Shown: in pieces, positions 4,461 to 19,357 of the stretch
Position numbering within the stretch: position 1 is the stretch's first letter
Layout: each line of letters begins with the position of its first letter
From: Paucidesulfovibrio longus DSM 6739
GTDB lineage: Bacteria > Desulfobacterota > Desulfovibrionia > Desulfovibrionales > Desulfovibrionaceae
Length of the DNA stretch: 64,000 nucleotides
Direction: 5' to 3'
Assembly (NCBI RefSeq): GCF_000420485.1
Contig: NZ_ATVA01000017.1
Location: 124,001 to 188,000, forward strand
The notes under the pieces: generated by a model
What the model was told of the DNA's origin: nothing
The model's input: only the letters and a program-made list of their open reading frames with translations
Databases searched by the model: none
Made by a program: the position numbers and the translations under genes

Positions 4461-7055
4461 TCAGCCTTCGTTCGCCGCCGCCTCCTTGGCGCCCTTGCTC
4501 TCGGCCATGGCGATCAGCGAGCCCACGTCCAGGATCAGGCTGACCTCGCCGTTGCCGAGGATGGTGCAGCCCGAAAGGCCGCGCGCGTTGCCGAGGTAGC
4601 TCGGCAGCCCCTTGATAACGGTCTGGTGCTGGCCCAGGATCTCGTCGCAGAAGATGCAGACGTTCTTGTTTCCCGAATCCACGATGACCAGGATGCCCTT
4701 GTCCAGCTCCACCACGTCCGGCTCGGCGTTGTAGAGCTCGTGCAGCCGGACCACGGGAATCATGTCGTCCCGGACCTTGACCACTTCCTGGCCGTCCATG
4801 GTCACGGTGACCTGGTGCATGTCCGGGCGGAAGGATTCGCGGATGGAAAGCAGCGGCAGCGTGTACTGGGCCGAGCCCACGCGGATGAGCATGCCCTCGA
4901 TGATGGCCAGGGTCAGCGGGATGCGCAGCAGCACCGTGGCGCCCTGCCCCTGGTTGCTCTGCACGTCCACGCGGCCCTTGAGCTTTTCCAGGTTGCGACG
5001 GACCACGTCCATGCCCACGCCCCGGCCGGAAACGTCCGTGATCTTCTCGGCGGTGGAAAAGCCCGGCTCGAAGATCATCTTGAAGACTTCGCTGTCCGGG
5101 AGGTTGCTTCCGTCGCCCTGGATCATGCCGTTGCCGATGGCCTTTTTGAGGATGCGCTCGCGGGAGAGCCCGCGGCCGTCGTCGCGCACCGCGATGAGCA
5201 CCTCGCCCGCCTCGTGGCGCGCCTCGATGGTGACCACGCCCGTATCGGACTTGCCCGCGGCAAGCCGCTCTTCCGGCGGCTCCAGCCCGTGGTCCACCGA
5301 GTTGCGGATGATGTGCACCAGCGGGTCCGCGATCTGCTCGATGACGGTCTTGTCGACCTCGGTCTCCTCGCCGAGCAGCTCCAGCCGGACCTTCTTGCCC
5401 GCCTTGGTGGAAAGGTCGTGCACCAGACGGATCATCTTCCGGAAAGTGCGGGAGAGCGGGATCATGCGCACCTGCATGGCCACGTCCTGGAGATCCGCGA
5501 TGATGCGGCGCAGGTTGTGCGCCGCGCGCTCGAAGCCTTCCAGGTTCAGCCCCTGGAGGTCCGGGTGGCGGGTGGTCATGCTTTCGGCGATGACCAGCTC
5601 GCCCACGAGGTTGATGAGCACGTCCAGCTTTTCCAGGTCCACGCGGATGTCGCGGCGCTCGATCTTGCTGGCCGCGGGCGCGCTCTTCGGGGCGGAGCGG
5701 GCCGCCTTGGGCTCGCGGGGCGCGCCGGCTGGGGCCTTGGCCGCGCCGCCGCCGGGCAGCAGGCCCGCCAGCTCGCCCACCAGCTCGTCCACCGGTCCCA
5801 TGGTCAGCTTGCCCTCGGCGGCGATCTCCGAAAGCCCGGCCCGGAGCGTGTCCAGGCCCTTCATCAGCGTGGCCCGGTCCGACTCCCGCCGGGGCGTGGT
5901 CCCGGTCTTGAAGAAGTCGAGCACCGTCTCCATGGTGTGGCTGACGCGCTCCAGGGGCTTGAAGCCGAGCAGGCCGCAATTGCCCTTGAAGCTGTGGATC
6001 ATGCGGAAGGCCTCGTTGAGGGACTCCTCGGCCCCTTCGGGCTCGTCGAAAATCTGCATCAGGGCCTGTTCGGCCGCGTCCAGCGACTCCTCGGCCTCGG
6101 TGGTGAACTGTTCGATCATCTCCTCGGTCACGGGCAGTTGCAGCTCGTCCATGATGCTTTGAGGATAATCCGACTGGGCGAAGCTTTCCTGCGGCGCGGG
6201 CGTCTCGGCCTCCGGCTGCGGAGCCGGAGCCGGGGCGGCCGCCGGGGGTTCCGGAGCCTTGGCGGCCTTGGCCCCCTGCTGCTGCGCCTCGGCCACGAGC
6301 TGCTCGCGGTCCACCACGGTCACGCGGTCCTGGGGCAGGCCCACGGCGAACTCGATGATGTCCGGCCCGATGATGGAGGAGTAGAGCAGCTCGTACCAGA
6401 GCGGCCCTTCGGGCAGGCCCTGCTTGAGGTCGGTGTCGTCCGCCTCCAGCCGCGCGTCGAGAATCTCTCCCGTGCTGGAAAGGCGCTTGATCAGCGCCAG
6501 CGGGCCTTCGCCCTTCTCGCTGGAAACCTCGGCCAGATCGTACTTGAGAACGTAGATGAACTCGTGGTTCTTGGGGATGTTGCGCAGGGTCAGCGGCGTG
6601 ACCTCGAATCCGGTCTTCTGCCCGCCCTGGTCGGTGACGGCGACGTCCTCCTGGTCCTTCTGGCCGGGCACGTGCCCCTCCAGCAGGTCGCTCAGGAGCT
6701 TGTGCTCCTTGGAGATGTCCATCTCGTTGCTCACGTCGACGTTGGCCAGCAGCTCGCTGAGCTTGTCCACGCCCGCGAGCAGGCCCTCGATGATGGCGTC
6801 CGTGACCGGAACCACGCCGGAGCGCAGCGAGGAAAGCAGGGTTTCCATGATGTGGGCCAGTTCGCTGATGCTCGTGAACTGGAGGAAGCCCGCACCGCCC
6901 TTGATGGAGTGGGCGGCCCGGAAGATCTTGTCGATCATGGCCGGGTCGGGGTTTTCCTTCTGGTTGCCGAGCTGCAGGAAGTCGTCCTCGATGTTTTCAA
7001 GGTGCTCCTGGGCCTCGACCACGAATTCTTCGACGATGGAAGGATCATTCCCCAT
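4461..7055 (-). CDS. cheA: Chemotaxis histidine kinase CheA with two Hpt domains
   Basis: Histidine autokinase of a chemosensory array. Domains in order: Hpt1 (about 1-105, phosphoacceptor H49 in AAHSIKGG), a P2-like region (about 148-255), an Ala/Pro-rich linker, a second Hpt (about 302-410, H354 in MIHSFKGN), P3 dimerisation (from about 470), HATPase (RNSVDHG N-box near 585, then DDGRGLS) and a C-terminal CheW-like domain. At 864 residues it is longer than a standard CheA because of the extra Hpt, and both Hpt histidines are intact. The ATG has the G-rich SD GAGGGG and overlaps the end of the upstream RsbW/STAS gene by 11 nt, indicating coupling. No CheY, CheR or CheB gene lies beside it in the window. 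Confidence 0.95.
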   Translation of the reverse strand: MGNDPSIVEEFVVEAQEHLENIEDDFLQLGNQKENPDPAMIDKIFRAAHSIKGGAGFLQFTSISELAHIMETLLSSLRSGVVPVTDAIIEGLLAGVDKLSELLANVDVSNEMDISKEHKLLSDLLEGHVPGQKDQEDVAVTDQGGQKTGFEVTPLTLRNIPKNHEFIYVLKYDLAEVSSEKGEGPLALIKRLSSTGEILDARLEADDTDLKQGLPEGPLWYELLYSSIIGPDIIEFAVGLPQDRVTVVDREQLVAEAQQQGAKAAKAPEPPAAAPAPAPQPEAETPAPQESFAQSDYPQSIMDELQLPVTEEMIEQFTTEAEESLDAAEQALMQIFDEPEGAEESLNEAFRMIHSFKGNCGLLGFKPLERVSHTMETVLDFFKTGTTPRRESDRATLMKGLDTLRAGLSEIAAEGKLTMGPVDELVGELAGLLPGGGAAKAPAGAPREPKAARSAPKSAPAASKIERRDIRVDLEKLDVLINLVGELVIAESMTTRHPDLQGLNLEGFERAAHNLRRIIADLQDVAMQVRMIPLSRTFRKMIRLVHDLSTKAGKKVRLELLGEETEVDKTVIEQIADPLVHIIRNSVDHGLEPPEERLAAGKSDTGVVTIEARHEAGEVLIAVRDDGRGLSRERILKKAIGNGMIQGDGSNLPDSEVFKMIFEPGFSTAEKITDVSGRGVGMDVVRRNLEKLKGRVDVQSNQGQGATVLLRIPLTLAIIEGMLIRVGSAQYTLPLLSIRESFRPDMHQVTVTMDGQEVVKVRDDMIPVVRLHELYNAEPDVVELDKGILVIVDSGNKNVCIFCDEILGQHQTVIKGLPSYLGNARGLSGCTILGNGEVSLILDVGSLIAMAESKGAKEAAANEG

Positions 7056-10015: not shown

Positions 10016-11362
10016 ATGAGCACCATCGTGACCATTCCGATCATCAGCCGCCAGCTCGGCGTGACCGAGCTCACCGAACGCGAGGCCGGACGCATCCGCA
10101 CGGCCCTGACCTGCGAGAGCCACCGCCTCGTGGAGATCATCGGCGCCCTGATCAACATCCATAAGAAGGACTACAACGACACCCGCGCCGTGCGCGAAAA
10201 ATTCCGGCACATGCGCGTGGAGCTGCAGAAGAAGAACGGCGACTACGCCCTGATCTGCACGGGCGTGCCCCGCGACTGCCTCTACGACGGCGAGCACGTC
10301 ATCGAACAGTCCGTGGAGCAGGTTTCCTCGGCCATGCGCGACATCGTCTTCCCGCCCGCGCCGAAAAACGGGCTCGGCACTTCCGAGGAACGCTCGGCCT
10401 ACGTGAAGAAGTTCGTGGAGCACTCCGGCATGCTCTATCGCGGCGAGCGCGGCCTCGTGGTCTTCACCTGGGGCGGCCACCGCGTCAGCCGCGAGGAGTA
10501 CGACTTCGCCAAGGTGCTGGCCTATTGGCTGGGCCTGTTCATGCCGGACATGGAGAACATCACGGGCTGCGGCGACGGCATCATGAAGGCCCCGTTCAAG
10601 GGCGTGCAGGTGGCCTACGGCAAGCAGCGCACCTTCAAGCGCTTCGGCATGCGCGACTACATCGGCTTCACCGAGCAGGGCATCCTGGCGGCCGAAGCGC
10701 CCAACGAGCTGGTCAACCGGCTGGTGGTCTTCCCCACCATCGAGCAGCGCATGGAGGCGTTCATCCGCGCGTCGCACCGGGGGCGCGCCCACCCCGGCGG
10801 CCCCGGCACCATCGAGGAGATCATGACCATGCTGGCCCTGCTCTCCAACCCGGAAAACCAGAACATCCCCTTCTCCTTCGAGATGGTCGAGGAGACGGGC
10901 GGGGTCTATTTCAAGGAATTGGACGAATATCTGCGGATCTGCTTCAAGGACGCCCTGGACGGGCTTTACGATGTCTTCTGCTGCGAGCCCCAGACCTATG
11001 CCCGGCACGTGGCCGAAACCACGCGCAAGCTGCCCATGCGCTACCTCTGGAACGACGACTTCCATTTCGAGGAGCGGCTGCAAACCCCCTTCGAGGTCAG
11101 CTTCGAGAGCATGGAGGCGCTCGACCTCTCCCGCAACCAGGAAGCCTGCTCCCTGCTCATCAATCTGCGGCGATTCTTCTCCGCCGTGGTCCACCTCAGC
11201 GTCAAGGATCCGGACATGCTCGACTCCTGGGGCGACGAGCGCCCCCTGATCCGGGGCGACAGGGACATCCTCCGGGCCACGGACGACCTGGTCAAGAAGC
11301 TGGAACGCCAGGGCCGCATCCACCCCGAAAAGAAATACGCCACCCCGTACAGGGTGGCGTAG
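10016..11362 (+). CDS. ppnN: PpnN (YgdH)-type nucleotide 5'-monophosphate nucleosidase, LOG family
   Basis: Cytoplasmic enzyme hydrolysing nucleoside monophosphates to base and ribose-5-phosphate; in E. coli PpnN binds (p)ppGpp. The 448-residue protein follows the E. coli layout: N-terminal regulatory segment, Rossmann-like LOG core with WGGHRVSREEY (152-162), TGCGDGIMKAPFKG (183-196), IGFTEQGILAAEAPNELVN (216-234) and the catalytic signature PGGPGTIEE (260-268), then a C-terminal extension. It is transcribed divergently from the sigma54 regulator; the 205-bp gap 9811-10015 must hold both promoters, though none is obvious. The last codons form a hairpin (11338-11359) without a T-run. Confidence 0.85.
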   Translation: MSTIVTIPIISRQLGVTELTEREAGRIRTALTCESHRLVEIIGALINIHKKDYNDTRAVREKFRHMRVELQKKNGDYALICTGVPRDCLYDGEHVIEQSVEQVSSAMRDIVFPPAPKNGLGTSEERSAYVKKFVEHSGMLYRGERGLVVFTWGGHRVSREEYDFAKVLAYWLGLFMPDMENITGCGDGIMKAPFKGVQVAYGKQRTFKRFGMRDYIGFTEQGILAAEAPNELVNRLVVFPTIEQRMEAFIRASHRGRAHPGGPGTIEEIMTMLALLSNPENQNIPFSFEMVEETGGVYFKELDEYLRICFKDALDGLYDVFCCEPQTYARHVAETTRKLPMRYLWNDDFHFEERLQTPFEVSFESMEALDLSRNQEACSLLINLRRFFSAVVHLSVKDPDMLDSWGDERPLIRGDRDILRATDDLVKKLERQGRIHPEKKYATPYRVA

Positions 11363-11410: not shown

Positions 11411-13576
11411 TCAGCATCCGAAGCTGAGCCAGACTCCCCCGGCGCACATGAGCAGCGGCTGGAGCGCGAGCTGCACCCGGCGCATGGCAATCCCGGCCCG
11501 GGCGAGGCCGCGCTTTTCGCATATCCGGACCAGGATGGTCGGCAGCACCACGGCAAGAATCGAAACATAGGCCAATAGGAACGTCTTGTCGTAGATCGTG
11601 GCGATTCCCGAGGAGGGTTTGGCGACGGTGAAGTAGAGGGCGACGACGGCCAGCAGACAGACCGCCTGGATCTCCACCCGCGAGGAGGCCTCGGAGGAAA
11701 CGAAGATCGACAGGTAGGCCAGCAGAAGAATGATCGCCAGCGGCACCACTGTCTTGAGAAGAAAATCCACCGGCAGCCTCTTCAGACGCCAATGGAACAC
11801 GTAGCGCGTGTTTCCCGCCTGGACCAGCCGGTCCGTGGAAAGATCAACGTCCGAGATGTGTTCCGTTTCCGTGCCGACCAGACTGTCCACAACCTTCCAG
11901 CCCTCCGCGCTGAACTCCTCATCCAGCGCATGCCCGTTCGCGGGCTGCACCTCCAAAGGCAGTTCGGGATCGGGAGAGCGCAGTCCGATGCCGATCTCCT
12001 GCACGTCAAAGGGATACGCGGCCAGACGGGGCGTGAAGCTGAATCTTGCGAAGACCTTGTAGCGGCTTCGATACAGGGGGATTTCCCCCCCCAGCTTCCT
12101 GTTGGTTTCAAGAGGAACGGAATCCAGCAGCGGACGGTTCGTCTCCGGACTTCTGGCGACGTTGGAAAAATCGAGAATATCCAAAAGATCCAGGGCCAGA
12201 GGCTCCGCGCACTGCAAGGAGACGTTCACCTCCGCGTCGAACGTGCCGGTGCTGACGTTGACGTCCCTGACGTTCGCCACATCCATATGAACGTACTTGG
12301 TGAAGCTGCGCCGGACCTGCCCCCCGACCAGAACGTACTGCACGGGGTAGAGCTTGACCTGGAGGCTGCCGGGCGCCTTCCAGAGCAGCGAAGGCACGTC
12401 GTCCAGCGCTCCTTCCCGCGTATAGGCCCAGTCCCGCGTCCATCCACGGTAATATCCCTTCCCGTCCTGCAGTTCCGCCATGCCCCTCAGGATCGCTTCG
12501 CGCGGGGACGCTTCCCCGCTGCGGCTGCCGACCCTCCACGCATGCGCGGTCACGCCGACGAGGTCGCCATATTCCATGCCTCGAAGCACGTAGTCGTCCT
12601 GCACTCCGTGCCGACGGATTTCCCTGACGAAGCGCTCGCGTGAACGAAGGTATTCCAGGGACATGATGTCGTCGCCGCGCATCTGCAATCGCAGCAGGGA
12701 CACGTCCGGCCGGATGCGCTCGTCAAGCTTGCCCAACATCGAGATCATGTCCGAATACGTCGGCATCAGCGGACACGAAACCCCCTTCTGATGCAACAAC
12801 GCGAGGAGTTCGCTGGTATCGGAGCTTCCGTATCCGCTGACGATAATCGGCCGCCTTGCAGCGGCGATCCGGTCGCGCAAGAATTCCCAAGTCTGCGTTC
12901 CCCCGTTCCAGTCGTTGATCAGGGCTTGGAATCCATAGGGCGCATCCGTGCGCGCAGCCAAATTTCCGGCGATGGCATTCCCGAAGACGTTACCCTTGTC
13001 CCCGGCGTAGAGGACCACGTCGAACCCGCCGTCGTCCAGGAACGCTTCGAGTATCGTCATGTTCGCGCCCTCGCCGGGATCGGCGGTGAACACGTTCGGA
13101 CGCCCGCGGTAGAGCCTTTCCAGCGAAAAATTGCCTGCGATCCACGGAATCCCGGACCGCCCCACCACGTCGATAATCTTGTCGGCGCTTGTGGAACTCG
13201 ATCCGCAGGCAAGGGCGATGACCTGCGGGTCGGCCGCTGCCCGCTCGACCTGCTCGCGGAAGTCCGGATCTTTGGGGGAAAGGAATCGATACGTGACGGG
13301 CACTCCGCCCAGGCCCCCGGCCCGGTTGATCTCGTCCTTTCGAAGTTCGAGGAACAGCCGCGTCGAGCGTCCAAAAGGCGTGTCCGAACGTTCCATGGTG
13401 CCGATGACGCCTATCTGATACGGCTCCGGGCCCTGCCAGAAACCCTGCCGGAACAGGATCCCGGCCAGCAGAAGTCCGAGCAGCAGCGGCGCAGCGAGCC
13501 GCAGCCAGCGCGGGCCAGGGAGCCGAGGCAGGGACTCGAAGCTCAACCGCACAGGAAAGCCTTCATTTCCGGGCAT
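11411..13576 (-). CDS. Periplasmic-binding-protein / pentameric ligand-gated ion channel fusion
   Basis: 721-residue membrane protein. An N-terminal hydrophobic segment (about 27-44) is followed by a type-I periplasmic binding domain (about 53-400: IGVIGT, DEINRAGGLGGVPV, ALACGSSSTS, VVLYAGDKGN). Next comes a Cys-loop-type beta-sandwich (about 410-598) with the signature YPFDVQEIGIGL (521-532), and four membrane helices: M1 601-627, M2 632-655, M3 661-685, M4 699-719. This is the complete topology of a prokaryotic pLGIC with an amino-acid-receptor-like domain in front. The inference is an ion channel gated by a small periplasmic ligand. It overlaps the upstream gene by 14 nt. The ATG has no clear SD; a GTG at 13552 preceded by AAGG is a good alternative start (713 aa). 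It converges on ppnN. Confidence 0.82.
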   Translation of the reverse strand: MPGNEGFPVRLSFESLPRLPGPRWLRLAAPLLLGLLLAGILFRQGFWQGPEPYQIGVIGTMERSDTPFGRSTRLFLELRKDEINRAGGLGGVPVTYRFLSPKDPDFREQVERAAADPQVIALACGSSSTSADKIIDVVGRSGIPWIAGNFSLERLYRGRPNVFTADPGEGANMTILEAFLDDGGFDVVLYAGDKGNVFGNAIAGNLAARTDAPYGFQALINDWNGGTQTWEFLRDRIAAARRPIIVSGYGSSDTSELLALLHQKGVSCPLMPTYSDMISMLGKLDERIRPDVSLLRLQMRGDDIMSLEYLRSRERFVREIRRHGVQDDYVLRGMEYGDLVGVTAHAWRVGSRSGEASPREAILRGMAELQDGKGYYRGWTRDWAYTREGALDDVPSLLWKAPGSLQVKLYPVQYVLVGGQVRRSFTKYVHMDVANVRDVNVSTGTFDAEVNVSLQCAEPLALDLLDILDFSNVARSPETNRPLLDSVPLETNRKLGGEIPLYRSRYKVFARFSFTPRLAAYPFDVQEIGIGLRSPDPELPLEVQPANGHALDEEFSAEGWKVVDSLVGTETEHISDVDLSTDRLVQAGNTRYVFHWRLKRLPVDFLLKTVVPLAIILLLAYLSIFVSSEASSRVEIQAVCLLAVVALYFTVAKPSSGIATIYDKTFLLAYVSILAVVLPTILVRICEKRGLARAGIAMRRVQLALQPLLMCAGGVWLSFGC

Positions 13577-15347
13577 CCCGGCTGCCGACCGCCGGGCCCA
13601 GCGCGCGCAGGTCAATGACCTTGTCGTCCGGAGCCAGTTCCCAGAAATGGGCATGGCGCTCCATGGCCTTCGGCGAAACCAGCACGAGCTCGGCGTCGGC
13701 CAGCAGATGCGGCAGGTGGCGGTCGTCAAAAAAGTCGTCCTGATCCCCGCGGTGACCCAGGATCGCGCTCCGGCGAACCGCCAAGACGCAGCCCGGAATC
13801 AGACGCTCCAGCAGTACTCGCAGCTGCTGCTCCTCGTCCTGGGCGCAGAGCAGCAGCAGCGGCGCTTTCTTGGCGGTCAGGAGGTGCGCCAGCGTGAATT
13901 TGCGGGCATCCGCGTAGGCGTCGCGCCAGGCGACCAACAGCCGCTCCGCGCTGCGCAGGGGATCGTTGAGCCTGTGCCAGCAGGCGCCGCGCATGTTCGA
14001 AAGCACCCGGACCATGGGATCGTCCATGATGGTCTTGCGGCTGGCGGGATCGACCCGCTTGAGCGTGAAGAGGTCGATGTATGCGCGCAGGCCGCGCTCG
14101 TTGTCGTGCAGGAAGGTCCAGAGCGACTTGAGGTCGATGGGCTCGCGCACGGCCAGGGCGCGGTCCAGGCCTGCCAGCAGGCCGGCGCGGTCCAGGGGAG
14201 GCTGGGCCAGAACCTCATCCAAGGCCGACGGGGGAAATTCCTTTTCCGGGAGCAGGGTGGCCTCGCTGAGCGTATAAAAGCTTGCCCCGGTCGCGGCGGA
14301 GATTTCCGCAGCGGCCTCCCCGGCCTTGAGCGCGGCCGCGATAAAGCCTATCGAGGAATGCACGAGCCGATTGTCGCGACGGCCGAGCTCCACGCTCATG
14401 CCGTCCTGCGTGTAGGCCCGCACGTCCCTATCTCCGGCCTCTACCGCTTGGTTGTCCCCCTGCCCGACGTAGCGCTCGCCCGTGCCGGGCCAGCTCAGAT
14501 CCGCACCGCTGACGTAGACCTTGGACGAGCCCAGCGCTTCGACAAGCCCAAGGCAGGCGATGAGCGAGCCCTCCACGCCGTCGCGCAGGACAAAGGAATT
14601 GGGCAGGAAGGCCTGCCCGAAGCTGGCGCGCAGGAACAGCCCGCGAAACAGCTCGGCCACGGGATGCACGTGGGCCGAGGACAGGCACACCAGCACGGTA
14701 TTCTCCAGCCGGGGCACCCCTTCGTAAAACTGGCGCTGCTCCATGTTCGTGTCGTACTGGATCACGAAATCCGGCTCCACCCCGGCCTCCAGGCAGGGGC
14801 GCAGGGTCCGGGCGATGCAGATGACCAGACAGCGCTCGGCCAGCTCCGGCAGGCGCGGCAAAATTTCCTGAAGGGACGGCCCGGCCAGCAGGATCAGGGC
14901 GGGTCTGCCCGCGCCCAGGCCGCGCAGCTTGTCCGCCAGAGGGTAGCGCAGCAGCCAGGGGTAGTTGCGCAGCTGGCTCAGGCTCCTGGTCGGATCCTTG
15001 AGCGCGCCCATCAGCGAGGTCAGGGTCTGGTCCATCTCCGACATGGGTCTGCGGTGGAAAAAGGCGAGATAGACGCGGGCCAGGACATGCTTCTGGACCA
15101 GGAGCGTGGCCTGCGCCTCTTCCTTGTCCGCCTCGGCGGGAAGCACGAACAAGACCTTGCGCTCCCAGAATGCTTCGGGCAGCCGGGCGCACAGCTTGGC
15201 CGGATTGACGAATTGCAGCTTGGGAATGGAGAGGACGTGGCTGCGCGGAATCTTCGGGTCCACGTCCACCGGGCCGAGGGCGACCACGGTTTCCCCGTTC
15301 CACTCCGAAAGCGCCAGCCTGTCCGTTCGACATGCGGCAAGATTCAT
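13563..15347 (-). CDS. DUF115 / MptE-like glycosyltransferase-associated protein
   Basis: 594-residue cytoplasmic protein of the 6-hydroxymethylpterin-pyrophosphokinase-like (DUF115/Maf) superfamily, which in bacteria is usually tied to flagellin or surface glycan modification. The recognisable core is LILLAGPSLQEILPRL (about 151-166), CIARTLRPCLEAGVEPDFVI (about 176-195) and GADLSWPG near residue 290. The start has the SD AGAGGA. It lies between a TagB/F-like transferase (46 bp upstream) and the PBP-pLGIC gene (14-nt overlap), so the three look like one operon. No substrate can be read from the sequence. Confidence 0.75.
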   Translation of the reverse strand: MNLAACRTDRLALSEWNGETVVALGPVDVDPKIPRSHVLSIPKLQFVNPAKLCARLPEAFWERKVLFVLPAEADKEEAQATLLVQKHVLARVYLAFFHRRPMSEMDQTLTSLMGALKDPTRSLSQLRNYPWLLRYPLADKLRGLGAGRPALILLAGPSLQEILPRLPELAERCLVICIARTLRPCLEAGVEPDFVIQYDTNMEQRQFYEGVPRLENTVLVCLSSAHVHPVAELFRGLFLRASFGQAFLPNSFVLRDGVEGSLIACLGLVEALGSSKVYVSGADLSWPGTGERYVGQGDNQAVEAGDRDVRAYTQDGMSVELGRRDNRLVHSSIGFIAAALKAGEAAAEISAATGASFYTLSEATLLPEKEFPPSALDEVLAQPPLDRAGLLAGLDRALAVREPIDLKSLWTFLHDNERGLRAYIDLFTLKRVDPASRKTIMDDPMVRVLSNMRGACWHRLNDPLRSAERLLVAWRDAYADARKFTLAHLLTAKKAPLLLLCAQDEEQQLRVLLERLIPGCVLAVRRSAILGHRGDQDDFFDDRHLPHLLADAELVLVSPKAMERHAHFWELAPDDKVIDLRALGPAVGSRDARK

Positions 15348-15393: not shown

Positions 15394-16605
15394 TCAGCAC
15401 GCACCGGGCGCGTATTCGCCCTGGAGCAGGTGCGCGGCGATGCGCTCGCCGGCTTTTCCATCCTGGTGCAAAAACGCCTTGTCCCGCAGCGCCCTTCGGG
15501 CCTCGGCCCACTCGTCCGCCCCGCCGGAGAGGACATGCTCCAGCGCGCGGAACAGGCTCGTCGCGTCGCGGCACTTGGGTCCGGGGCACATCTCCTCGAA
15601 GGGAAACTGGAATCCCCGGTCCACGGACATGTAGCTCTCGAAGTCGGCCCAGAAGAAGAGCACGGGCCGATCCATGAGCAAATACTCCGTGAATATGGAG
15701 GAATAGTCCGTGATCATCAAGTCCGCGAGGGGAAAAAACGGGTAGATGTCGCTGTCCGCGTTGCAAATGGTCACGTGCGGGGGCAGGTGGCCGATGCGCA
15801 CGGGCACGCGGCCGTGGGGCTTGATCAGCAGGTGCGCGCCGCGCTTGCCGAAATAATCCGCGAAACGCTCGAAATCGAGCGCGTCCTGTGTCAGTGGATT
15901 GACGTCCGTGTCCCGGAACGTGGGCGCGAAAAGCACCACCGGGCCTTTCTTGCGGGCCTTGACCACGGCGGTGTAGGCCTCGCGGTCGCAGCCGACCATG
16001 CTCCAGGCGTCCAGCGGCCGGAAGAGCACGTCCGTGCGCGGGTAGCCCAGGGAGACGAATTCCCTGGCGTGCATGGACTTGCGGAAGACCTCGTCCGTGT
16101 AGAACGGCGAGGTGGAAACGATCAGGTCGTAGTCGCTGTGGTCCTCGATCAGGGTCTGGTCCTTGCCGGCGAGCACGGACGCGCCCGCGAGCTGGAATCC
16201 GATCTTCTTGTTGCCGACCCCGTGCCAGAGCTGGACCTGCCGCGCCCCCTCGATGAGCGGATAGTAGAGATGGTTGCGGAAGCTGATGGCCTCGACCACC
16301 ACGGTCCCGGCGCGGGGAAGGATGTCCACGGCCTCGGGCGAGGGATGGAAGACCACGGGCAGCTTGGCCGCGCGCAGCTCCTTGTAGTCGGCCTTCTCCT
16401 GGGTCAGATACCAGCACTCCAGCTCGGGGTGGTGCTTCAGGAAATGCAGGAAGAGGTATTTCGTGTTTCCGGCGAAACCGCCGCGTCCGCGTCCGATGAA
16501 CACGTAGACGCGCTTCGACTTGGGCGTGCGGTTGCCCACGATCGTATACTGCGCCCTGATCTTGACGTATTTTCGCAAATACTCGTCGAGCCCTTCGTTC
16601 CCCAT
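15394..16605 (-). CDS. CDP-glycerol glycerophosphotransferase family protein (TagB/TagF-like)
   Basis: 403-residue membrane-associated transferase expected to add glycerol- or ribitol-phosphate-like units to a surface glycan. Family marks are LWHGVGNKKIG (127-137), SPFYTDEVF, GYPRTDVLF, APTFRD and, near the C-terminus, ITDYSSIFTEYLL followed by RPVLFF. The ATG at 16605 is chosen because GGAGGGG precedes it; the frame extends upstream without such a signal. In Gram-negatives such proteins decorate capsule or flagellar glycans, consistent with the DUF115 gene downstream. Confidence 0.83.
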   Translation of the reverse strand: MGNEGLDEYLRKYVKIRAQYTIVGNRTPKSKRVYVFIGRGRGGFAGNTKYLFLHFLKHHPELECWYLTQEKADYKELRAAKLPVVFHPSPEAVDILPRAGTVVVEAISFRNHLYYPLIEGARQVQLWHGVGNKKIGFQLAGASVLAGKDQTLIEDHSDYDLIVSTSPFYTDEVFRKSMHAREFVSLGYPRTDVLFRPLDAWSMVGCDREAYTAVVKARKKGPVVLFAPTFRDTDVNPLTQDALDFERFADYFGKRGAHLLIKPHGRVPVRIGHLPPHVTICNADSDIYPFFPLADLMITDYSSIFTEYLLMDRPVLFFWADFESYMSVDRGFQFPFEEMCPGPKCRDATSLFRALEHVLSGGADEWAEARRALRDKAFLHQDGKAGERIAAHLLQGEYAPGAC

Positions 16606-16822
16606 CGCTTCCCCTCCGGCCGGGCGCGCCCCAGGCCCGCGCCCCGCTTGTCGGTTAATTGTCCGTTCCGGCGGAGCGTTGCACAGGGCGTGCCGCGCTG
16701 TCCAGAAAGCGGGGCCGGGAAAACGACGACGCCTCCAAAAAGCCGCCCCCGTGCGCGGCACAGGAGCGGCTCGCCTGCCGCGGGCCGATCCGGATTCCGA
16801 ATCCGCCCTTCGGGTTTCCGGC

Positions 16823-19357
16823 TTATTTCTTGGCTGCGGACTTCTTCCCGCTCTTTTTCTTGTCCTCGTCCTTGTCCTTGCCGAACTTCTGGATGGCCTC
16901 GGCCATTTCCAGGAGCTTGGCGTCCGCGAGGCCGAAGATGGAATTCTTGGGGTACTTGCCGTTCTTGCCCCGGCTGCCCGCGGGCTTGCCCATGAGCAGC
17001 TCGGCCCCGTCCTCGATGCGGGCCACGGCCCAGACGTTGAAGCGGCCCTGGTCCACGGCGTCCACCACTTCCTGGCGGAGCATCAGATCCTTGACGTTGG
17101 CCTTGGGGATCATCACGCCCTGCCTGCCCGTCAGTCCGGCGCTCTTGCAGCAGAGGTAGAAGCCCTCGATCTTCTCGTTGACCCCGCCGATGGGCTGGAC
17201 CTCGCCCTTCTGGTTCACGGAGCCGGTCACGGCGATGTCCTGGCGGATGGGCAGGCCGGAGAGGCTGGAGAGCAGCGCGTAAAGCTCGGTGCTGGAGGCC
17301 GAGTCGCCGTCCACCCCGCCGTAGCTCTGCTCGAAGGCGATGGACGCGGCCAGGGCCATGGGCTTGTCCTGGGCGAACATACGCCGCAGCCAGCCCGCCA
17401 GGATGAGCATGCCCTTGTTGTGGGTGGGGCCGGAGAGGTCGGCCTCGCGCTCGATGTTGATCAGCCCTTCCTTGCCCAGGCTGGTCACGGCGGTGATGCG
17501 CGAGGGCTTGCCGAACATGTGGTCGCCCATGGAATAGACGGCCAGGCCGTTGATCTGCCCGACCTCTTCGCCGTCCGTGCTCACGAAGAGCGAACCCCGG
17601 TCGATCATCTCCTGGAGCCGCTCCTCCACCTGGTTGGAGCGGTAGATCTTGGCCTCGATGGCCTTTTCCACGTGCTCGGCGGTGACGGCCGCGCAGCTCT
17701 CGCACTGGTCCGCGAAGTAGGCGGCCTCGTCCACGAGGTCGGCCAGGTGCGGGAAGAAGGTGGAGATCTTTTCCTGGCGGCCGGACATGCGCACGGCGCG
17801 CTCCGTCACGCGGGCCACGGCCGAGGCGTCGAATGGCTTGAGGCCGCGCTTGTCCGCCACGCTGCGGATGAACCGGGCCACCTGGAGCACGCGCTCGTCC
17901 GTGCGGTCCATGCTCGTCTCGATGTCGGCCCGGACCTTGAATATCTTGTGCGTGTCCGGGTCGTAGCGGCGCAGCATCTGGTAGAGGTAGGGGTCGCCCA
18001 TGACCACGACCTTGACCTGCATGGGGATGGATTCCGGCTTCAGGCCCGTGGCCGTCAGGAAATAATACGGGTCAAAGGTCTGGATTTCGATTTCCTCGGT
18101 CTTCAGGGAGCGCTTCAGCGTCTGCCAGACGCCCGGCTCCATGATCGCGTCCATGAGGTTGAGCACCAGAAAGCCGCCGTTGGCCTTGACGAAGGAACCC
18201 GCCTTGATCTTGGTGTAGTCCGTGCGCCAGCCGCCGTTGCGGTCCATGATCCGCTCGATGGACCCGAAGAGGTTGCGGTAGGTGGGGTAGGATTCGATGA
18301 TCACGGGCGGGCCGTCCTGCTCGGAATTGTCCACCAGCAGGTTGACCTGATAGGGGTGGAAGACCACCTCGGGCGGCGGGGCCATCATCATCATGGGCCC
18401 GGCCTGCTGGGGCCGCGCGCCGAGCATCTTGATGGTGTCCAGGTTCTCGACCATGTCGTCGAGCACGGCGTCCACGTAGCGCGCGACCTTGGCCTCCTGC
18501 TCGTCCTTTTCGCCCTTTTCGTCCGTATCGTCCTTGCCCTCGCCGCAATACTCCTCCCGCAGCGGGCGGATGTATTCCTTGGCCAGGGCCAGGAACATGA
18601 GCCGGTCCACCTCCTCGCTCTTCTCCTTGACCTCCTTGTTCAGCCGCTTGACCTCGATGACGATGTGGTCCAGCTCTTCCTTGATCTCGCTGCGCCGCTT
18701 CTTGAGCCGTTCCAGCTCCTCCGCCGGAAAACGGCCCTTCTCGACCATCTCCTCGACCTCGACCATGCGCTTGGGCTCGCCGTCCACCAGGGGCACGACG
18801 TCGGGCCGCTGCACCGGGCCCATCTGCATGTTGACCACCACCAGGTCCGTGTCCTTGACCTTGTCTTCCACGGCCTTGTAGAACTCGCGGACCTGCTTTT
18901 CGTGGGCCTCCATGATCTGGTTCTTGCGCCCGATGTATTCCTCGGACTCGAAGAGCTGGGGAACCTCCTTCTTGATGCTCTCCAGGAAGTCGTGCATGCC
19001 CTTCTTGAACCCCGCGCCCCGGCCCGCGTCGAAACGGAGCAGGATGGGCGATTCCGGATGCTTGAAATTGTTCACGTAGCAGAGGTCGTCCGGCACGCCG
19101 TCGCCGCCGGAAAGCTCCTTGAGCAGCTTCTTGACCGTGAACATCTTGCCCGTGCCCGCCGGGCCGGTGACGAAGATGTTGTATCCCTTGCGGTCCATGC
19201 CCATGCCGAAGCGGAACGCCTCCACCCCGCGCTGCTGGCCGACGATGTCCGCCAGGGGTTCGAGATCATCCGTGCTCTTGAAGGACAACGACGCCGGGTC
19301 CAGACGCCACCGCAGATTTTCCAGTGCCACTTTGTGCTTGTCGGTTGTGGACGGCAT
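16823..19357 (-). CDS. Lon-like ATP-dependent protease (LonB/AAA_32 type)
   Basis: 844-residue ATP-dependent serine protease. It has an N-terminal AAA+ region with GPAGTGKMF (65-73), a long charged central insertion, an AAA lid, and a C-terminal Lon protease domain with catalytic serine in GGVDGDSASSTELYA and lysine in GGVNEKIEGFY. The usual Ser/Thr after the P-loop lysine is Met, which is unusual for an active ATPase, although atypical P-loops occur in this subfamily. The C-terminus is Lys-rich. It starts 4 nt after the Hsp20 stop, so the two are co-transcribed, consistent with a proteostasis pair. Confidence 0.9.
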   Translation of the reverse strand: MPSTTDKHKVALENLRWRLDPASLSFKSTDDLEPLADIVGQQRGVEAFRFGMGMDRKGYNIFVTGPAGTGKMFTVKKLLKELSGGDGVPDDLCYVNNFKHPESPILLRFDAGRGAGFKKGMHDFLESIKKEVPQLFESEEYIGRKNQIMEAHEKQVREFYKAVEDKVKDTDLVVVNMQMGPVQRPDVVPLVDGEPKRMVEVEEMVEKGRFPAEELERLKKRRSEIKEELDHIVIEVKRLNKEVKEKSEEVDRLMFLALAKEYIRPLREEYCGEGKDDTDEKGEKDEQEAKVARYVDAVLDDMVENLDTIKMLGARPQQAGPMMMMAPPPEVVFHPYQVNLLVDNSEQDGPPVIIESYPTYRNLFGSIERIMDRNGGWRTDYTKIKAGSFVKANGGFLVLNLMDAIMEPGVWQTLKRSLKTEEIEIQTFDPYYFLTATGLKPESIPMQVKVVVMGDPYLYQMLRRYDPDTHKIFKVRADIETSMDRTDERVLQVARFIRSVADKRGLKPFDASAVARVTERAVRMSGRQEKISTFFPHLADLVDEAAYFADQCESCAAVTAEHVEKAIEAKIYRSNQVEERLQEMIDRGSLFVSTDGEEVGQINGLAVYSMGDHMFGKPSRITAVTSLGKEGLINIEREADLSGPTHNKGMLILAGWLRRMFAQDKPMALAASIAFEQSYGGVDGDSASSTELYALLSSLSGLPIRQDIAVTGSVNQKGEVQPIGGVNEKIEGFYLCCKSAGLTGRQGVMIPKANVKDLMLRQEVVDAVDQGRFNVWAVARIEDGAELLMGKPAGSRGKNGKYPKNSIFGLADAKLLEMAEAIQKFGKDKDEDKKKSGKKSAAKK

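Follow-up and report, generated by a model that had tools for sequence, protein, structure and literature searches.

A single gene in the 64,000-nucleotide stretch of the Paucidesulfovibrio longus DSM 6739 genome analyzed here (contig NZ_ATVA01000017.1, positions 124,001 to 188,000; called the window below) encodes a protein in which a type-I periplasmic binding protein (PBP-I) domain is followed by a prokaryotic pentameric ligand-gated ion channel (pLGIC). It is a bacterial cousin of the acetylcholine and γ-aminobutyric acid (GABA) receptors of nerve cells, with a nutrient-binding protein fused to it. The PBP-I::pLGIC kind of protein has been known since 2004 and is little studied, and the window's protein adds a rare and divergent example. 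The presence of receptor and channel architecture in one chain, as proposed in the initial annotation, is evident from a Pfam match (PF13458), phmmer matches, a leave-one-out profile and comparisons of a predicted structure. The protein probably works as a homopentameric pLGIC in which a LivJ-like PBP-I fronts each subunit, senses a small amino-acid-like ligand and either gates the pore or tunes it.

The gene is an intact frame of 721 residues (P0001), read on the minus strand from 13576 to 11411 with no internal stop, and the plus-strand reading across the same interval is interrupted by stops. The frame given in the initial annotation is real; its strand had to be corrected to minus. In its own genome the gene is the single match both to P0001 (protein search, E≤1e-3) and to the full channel profile A4 described below. 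From the N- to the C-terminus the chain consists of a hydrophobic helix, PBP-I, a Cys-loop-type beta-sandwich and four helices (Table 1). The first helix is a putative signal peptide or uncleaved signal anchor, which would direct the rest of the chain to the periplasm. The structure model places the channel helices at residues 602-625, 628-651, 658-688 and 692-720. Of the four membrane helices annotated initially, M1-M3 are also clear by hydropathy, and M4 comes from the model, being unflagged by hydropathy.

The C-terminal half appears, by homology over the sandwich and the four-helix channel and by its modelled fold, to be a prokaryotic pLGIC of the Cys-loop superfamily. Six relatives on contigs of Myxococcota and Spirochaetia were made into a profile that left out the window's protein; it matched that protein over residues 428-690, that is, over sandwich and helices, with 92 bits and E 1.9e-30, a value somewhat flattered as the six relatives were found by similarity to this same protein. 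With this profile none of 2000 shuffled sequences was reported, and neither was the reversed sequence. A phmmer search of the PDB gave ELIC (3.3e-6) and sTeLIC (7.2e-6) over residues 467-713, and the full profile A4, which includes the window's protein, finds GLIC at 2.4e-30 to 1e-29. The NCBIfam model LGIC_1 matched with E 2.7e-6, but its 27 bits lie far below the cut-off of 500. The sandwich with its YPFDVQ motif, noted initially, was upheld by the leave-one-out profile, and PFD.Q is invariant in alignments A6 and A4 together with R600 at the end of the ligand-binding domain (LBD) and P612, the M1 proline.

Two checks suggested in the initial annotation gave a divided answer. The Pfam channel families PF02931 and PF02932 did not match the protein at E≤1, which by the criterion of the initial annotation would refute a channel; the profile of six relatives did match. 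Since PF02932 also misses four of the six relatives in A4 at E≤0.01, we regard these misses as a sign of insensitive models and not as counter-evidence. The whole-chain monomer model, predicted from a ten-row alignment, is weak (mean predicted local distance difference test score, pLDDT, 50.9), with channel blocks mostly at 60-83. For residues 410-721 there are matches to sTeLIC (Foldseek E 1e-12, root-mean-square deviation (rmsd) 11.9) and GLIC (VIA Z 15.1, rmsd 11.5, 275 aligned), and the modelled C-terminal half also matches ELIC; the resemblance to the channel fold holds, at a large rmsd of 11-12 Å.

The N-terminal half was rightly annotated as a type-I periplasmic binding domain. Pfam PF13458 (Peripla_BP_6) matches residues 51-268 with E 3.7e-10 and 40.5 bits (cut-off 31.7), and in the Pfam scan neither PF13433, also named initially, nor the PBP-II families matched the protein at E≤1. 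The best PDB sequence match of this half is 3HUT, a putative branched-chain amino acid ABC transporter protein (2.3e-4). A profile of 60 other PBPs, from which the window's protein was left out, matches residues 47-269 with E 9.8e-21; its rows were gathered partly through similarity to the window's protein or to other fusions, so that its E-values are somewhat flattered. The serine-rich stretch 124-130 and Ser151 align with pocket positions of LivJ-type PBPs, and we take the serines and threonines at the matching positions of LIVBP to be amino-acid contacts. These alignments place the domain by homology among PBPs of the Leu/Ile/Val type, with a first lobe that keeps the pocket serines. Foldseek with a low-confidence model of the PBP put leucine-binding protein, LIVBP and AmiC at the top of its list, to which we give little weight, and a search of viral_contigs yielded no further PBP rows for folding.

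How could such a chain work? It would be anchored in the inner membrane, and on the periplasmic side five PBP domains would form a ring above the channel. The PBP lobes would close on a small ligand resembling an amino acid or a carboxylate, and the movement would pass through a linker of about 20 residues (405-425) to the first strand of the sandwich. The quaternary twist would then change, the L9' gate would open and a ring of Glu at 2' would favour cations, so that nutrient sensing would end in ion flux. We infer the gating of the channel by the PBP domain; natural parallels with the same domain order, four from one alphaproteobacterial order (L118-L121) and one from the window's phylum (L143), support a PBP-fronted channel.

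The pore helix M2 carries R633 (0'), E635 (2'), V639 (6'), L642 (9'), A646 (13') and F649 (16'), and both -1' and -2' are Ser. Presumably L9', A13' and F16' are as in ELIC. An acid at 2' is found elsewhere in the alignment, as Glu in L008 and L079 and as Asp in L013 and L030. The L008 contig, from the window's family (G023), holds two tandem pLGIC genes without PBP (L008:1417-2568:- and L008:191-1306:-), both with Glu at 2'.

The orthosteric ligand box of the sandwich looks eroded. In the phmmer alignment with ELIC, the window's protein has deletions where ELIC has F133 and F188, and Leu in place of Y175; we assume that, in this numbering, these are the principal-side aromatics of ELIC. The loop C region of the window's protein has two aromatics, both within the shared RYVF strand, and loop C itself has none, against 6-7 in this region in most close Myxococcota rows. 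The alignment suggests, and does not demonstrate, that sensing was handed over from this site to the PBP.

Besides the flattered profile values, several observations weigh against the reading of a PBP that senses and gates. The acid usually tied to cation selectivity at -1'/-2' is absent from M2. Neither Pfam nor the 60-PBP profile matches beyond residue 270, which leaves the second lobe (270-405) unmatched by sequence, and a single-sequence model of the PBP alone had very low confidence (mean pLDDT 37.7, second lobe mostly below 50). With 3.1 changes per column, the window's protein has a very long branch in the PBP tree, and its PBP may therefore have changed or lost its ligand binding. Finally, channels without a PBP may also have few loop C aromatics (L034 1, L020 1, L063 0), and among PBP-fused channels L118 keeps 5 and L119 keeps 7, with 1 in L120/L121; for these reasons erosion of the orthosteric site is no proof of a hand-over.

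It is rather unlikely that the PBP only captures or concentrates the ligand beside the channel, while gating is done by the canonical intersubunit site of the sandwich. The loop C aromatics kept in PBP-fused L118 and L119 would fit such a division of labour, but the window's protein lacks all three ELIC-equivalent aromatics, by the numbering assumed above, as well as any aromatic in loop C. A capture role of this kind was proposed for PBP-linked bacterial channels by Tasneem et al. (PMC549065). A degenerate or structural PBP on a channel that answers protons, calcium or the membrane state, like GLIC or DeCLIC, is unlikely. The very long PBP branch and the unrecognized second lobe would agree with it, as would the apparent modulation of gating by the N-terminal domain of DeCLIC (PMC12664993); however, the frame is intact and the pocket serines of the first lobe have been kept.

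Table 1. Features of the PBP-I::pLGIC gene and of its neighbourhood in the window.
Feature	Coordinates	Strand	Basis or remark
PBP-I::pLGIC gene	11411..13576	-	721 aa; sole match in own genome
N-terminal hydrophobic helix, residues 24-42	13451..13507	-	hydropathy; model helix 23-43
Type-I periplasmic binding domain, residues 51-405	12362..13426	-	sequence support 47-270; remainder by length only
First-lobe pocket stretch, residues 124-151 (CGSSSTS ... GNFS)	13124..13207	-	alignments with LivJ-type PBPs
Cys-loop-type ligand-binding beta-sandwich, residues 425-600	11777..12304	-	leave-one-out profile, model strands, structure matches
YPFDVQ conserved loop motif, residues 521-526	11999..12016	-	PFD.Q invariant in alignment A4
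Four-helix channel domain, residues 602-720	11417..11773	-	model; M1-M3 also by hydropathy
Pore helix M2, residues 633-652	11621..11680	-	alignment; prime numbering by convention
Terminator-like hairpin directly downstream of channel gene	11336..11361	-	hairpin scan
PpnN-like nucleosidase, convergent downstream neighbour	10016..11362	+	directly behind the MptE-like gene in G002, which lacks the channel
MptE-like protein, upstream neighbour	13563..15347	-	PF01973 8.6e-19
CDP-glycerol glycerophosphotransferase-like (Glyphos), upstream neighbour	15394..16761	-	PF04464 2.7e-58
LonB/LonC-like protease, upstream neighbour	16823..19357	-	PF13654 2.9e-46

The surroundings of the gene raise a third alternative. 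It begins 14 bases before the end of the MptE-like gene on the same strand, and a terminator-like hairpin stands behind it (six such sites were found in the region against 4.4 expected from shuffles, a signal that is weak alone). This arrangement would fit a channel that functions within a surface-glycan system, sensing or serving glycan export together with its operon neighbours, but we consider this very unlikely. The initial annotation had pointed to the surface-glycan-type partners without explanation. In the same-genus genome G002, LonC, Glyphos and MptE-like genes are followed directly by PpnN with no channel between them: on contig L132 the MptE-like gene ends at 6873 and PpnN starts on the other strand from about 6970, an empty site of about 100 bases against the 2.2-kb gene in the window. 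The other same-genus genome, G001, has LonC-Glyphos-MptE and then something else, and neither genome matches P0001 or the channel profile. The GC content at third codon positions (GC3) of the channel gene is 0.79, the lowest among nine window open reading frames (ORFs) measured and below the 0.85-0.93 of the other eight, as would be expected of a newcomer. Late arrival, or loss in both sister genomes, is a better explanation for the odd partners than a common function. The glycan operon was rejected as a functional clue because both same-genus genomes carry it without the channel, G002 with the empty site. A non-conducting signalling receptor that retains the channel fold is extremely improbable: M4 is unflagged by hydropathy and conduction is a prediction, but R0', L9', A13' and F16' are all kept in M2, and the predicted structure has four helices.

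Fusions of PBP-I to such channels were described, from genome sequences, in Magnetospirillum magnetotacticum and Bradyrhizobium japonicum by Tasneem et al. (Genome Biology, December 2004), who drew the parallel with the N-methyl-D-aspartate (NMDA) receptor and proposed chemotaxis receptors acting as homopentamers (PMC549065). Their PBP-I-fused acetylcholine receptor-type ligand-gated ion channels (ART-LGICs) have the same order as the window's protein, with N-terminal PBP-I, Cys-loop-type LBD and four-helix channel, but are alphaproteobacterial, whereas the window's protein comes from another phylum and is very divergent; the comparison is by published description only. The initial suggestion that this domain logic is otherwise seen in ionotropic glutamate receptors does not stand as a novelty, as both the fusions and the NMDA parallel were published in 2004 (PMC549065) and more examples were found here.

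Ionotropic glutamate receptors likewise have a PBP-I-type domain in front of a ligand-gated channel, but their pore and second ligand domain are unrelated to the Cys-loop sandwich and four-helix pLGIC pore of the window's protein. With its pLGIC half and no PBP-II match in the Pfam scan, assignment to that receptor class is ruled out. ELIC, GLIC and sTeLIC share the LBD and four-helix fold with it and are themselves without a PBP front end, and the aromatic amine site of ELIC is missing from it. DeCLIC, from a sulfate-reducing deltaproteobacterium, is also a pLGIC with a large extra N-terminal domain; this domain consists of two jelly-roll lobes (PMC12664993), whereas that of the window's protein is PBP-I, which rules out a DeCLIC-type protein. 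In the available text of Fan et al. 2025, DeCLIC is the sole pLGIC with a partially characterized N-terminal domain (PMC12664993), and that of Lycksell et al. 2022 states the same with respect to structures (PMC9897478). No functional study of PBP-fused channels came up among the listed matches of our literature search, and the available text of PMC4795631 yielded no wording on N-terminal or periplasmic domains. With a soluble binding protein and a pentameric pore, both of well-understood types, joined in one chain, it becomes directly testable, as has long been asked, whether an added sensor can gate a Cys-loop channel, and by which route the movement of the sensor reaches the pore.

How widespread are such fusions? 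P0001 was searched against 59 relatives (10 with partial matches or self and no other full-length relative), 395 phylum genomes (58 matched) and 297 class genomes (5 matched), the own gene being the sole full-length match in the last two sets. Only one of 385 genomes from the class of the Pelagibacteraceae genome G685 matched, partially, and plasmids, phages, genome_contigs and viral_contigs held no full-length relative. The phylum, class and G685-class searches scored only the two or three best candidates of each genome, and the sets searched overlap. As none of these searches found another fusion, P0001 alone is too divergent a probe. The absences mean that there is no close relative, not that there is no PBP-pLGIC, because profile A4 later found L143, which the phylum search with P0001 had not listed though its genome is apparently within that sample. 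With A4, pLGICs were detected in 3/119 family genomes (own genome included), 13/247 phylum genomes and 16/116 genomes of the class of G681; the same profile matched 6/240 genomes in the class of G685, two of the six being MscS-type fusions.

In total, five more PBP-I::pLGIC fusions were found, namely L118-L121 in the order of G738 (Alphaproteobacteria) and L143:145-2373:+ (P0004) in G267 from the window's phylum. The latter is a protein of 743 aa with PF13458 at 7.5e-36 and a channel profile match over 453-706. It shares the architecture of the window's protein, but its head is clearly related to the heads of PBP-pLGIC and PBP-MscS proteins from Alphaproteobacteria, whereas that of the window's protein matches only short pieces by BLAST. 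In genome G099 of the same phylum, a pLGIC gene lies beside a separate PBP-I gene (L135:204-1304:- and L135:1232-2623:-). The L135 channel groups with PBP-fused L118 and L119 at 99% support in the Shimodaira-Hasegawa-like approximate likelihood ratio test (SH-aLRT), and the pair possibly represents the unfused state of the fusion.

A related head was detected on another pore. The alphaproteobacterial proteins L093:1879-5001:- (P0002, 1041 aa) and L094:1970-5227:+ (P0003) consist of PBP-I (PF13458 2e-35 and 8e-34), an A4-type sandwich, and then an MscS domain (PF00924 2.4e-18 and 6.8e-19); loci L098-L117 also belong to this group, whose proteins are of about 1040 aa. On the sandwich of L093 and L094, A4 scores E 1.1e-7 and 7.4e-7 among frames (1.7e-6 and 2.6e-4 when scored per genome). 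Matches to P0002 that span 884 or more of the 1041 residues, with E≤2.8e-240, occur in 38/82 genomes of the order of G738 (one of the 38 with a TGA inside the frame and one without the first 150 residues). MscS is heptameric.

On the pLGIC side, the head of L143 is the nearest one found to the PBP-MscS heads. The alignment of P0004 with P0002 runs from residue 12 to 565 (28% identity over 577 columns, E 2e-61) and ends where the pores begin; the sandwich piece by itself scored 97.8 bits, and the highest of 1000 shuffled sequences reached 22.7. Comparison of A7, a profile of the MscS-side sandwich, with A4 gave a probability of 97.5% and E 5.9e-12. For L143 and P0002, a shared head on two unrelated pores is well supported by these alignments. 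Among the full-text literature matches listed, judged by the starts of their abstracts, no earlier account of a PBP-MscS pore swap was seen. The window's own protein matches P0002 over only 50 residues in BLAST, so that it is tied to this group via profiles and not directly. One further locus, L122:1125-4619:+ (1165 aa), encodes PBP-I, a sandwich region and an MscS domain and ends in a cyclic-nucleotide-binding domain (PF00027 2.2e-17), so that both faces of the membrane may contribute to its gating.

We suggest tentatively, and with more doubt than belief, that PBP-I plus sandwich is a portable head which bacteria have placed on two or more unrelated pores, those of pLGICs (L118-L121, L143 and the window's protein) and of MscS (L093, L094 and kin), and that the version in the window was assembled separately, its PBP taking over sensing from an eroded orthosteric site. 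The part that concerns the window's protein is the uncertain one. Against a swap of pores speaks the search of the PDB by sequence with A7, which finds no pLGIC and only an Mce protein at 0.0081. If the suggestion is true, the Cys-loop sandwich would be a transmission between sensor and pore, working in the MscS fusions at a different subunit number, and thus a general coupling part and not a speciality of pLGICs. A head shared by both pores would also be a natural guide to the design of ligand-gated channels of chosen specificity.

Phylogenetic trees gave no sharp answer about the origin of the fusion. In the approximately unbiased (AU) test, one clade of fused channels had p 0.397 with five fusions and 0.094 with six, and one clade of fused PBPs had p 0.052 with five fusions and 0.115 when all 27, MscS fusions included, were taken, in each case with long branches; the window's protein was on a long branch in every tree (1.9-3.1). 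Its PBP scores E 5.4e-19 against a profile of 34 stand-alone PBPs and 5.3e-11 against one of 26 fused PBPs, a difference set aside and not used for separate fusion because most stand-alone rows entered via P0001 and the fused rows via P0002. The PBP tree dropped L065, L066, L098 and L105 (same loci or partial) as well as L041, whose omission had no sound ground, and did not use the own-genome loci L001, L083 and L124 or L040 from E. coli. From the channel tree, repeated sequences and rows with a profile match below 150 positions were dropped, and the tree with six fusions added only L143 and seven other new phylum loci.

Other sensors have been joined to these channels as well. In L046:5559-8075:+ and L097:1626-4034:+ (Spirochaetia genome G684) and in L088:2-2374:+ (G1081), an SBP_bac_5 domain (E 2.4e-39 to 5.6e-44) is predicted behind the fourth pLGIC helix, a C-terminal type-II solute-binding domain that is, by its predicted position, the mirror image of the N-terminal fusions. 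In the available text of Tasneem et al., PBP-II were known as neighbouring genes only (PMC549065). Two pLGICs are fused to Cache domains, L095:2465-4675:- (dCache_1 2.8e-14) and L146:61-2220:+ (3.2e-12), an architecture of a kind already described by the same authors (PMC549065).

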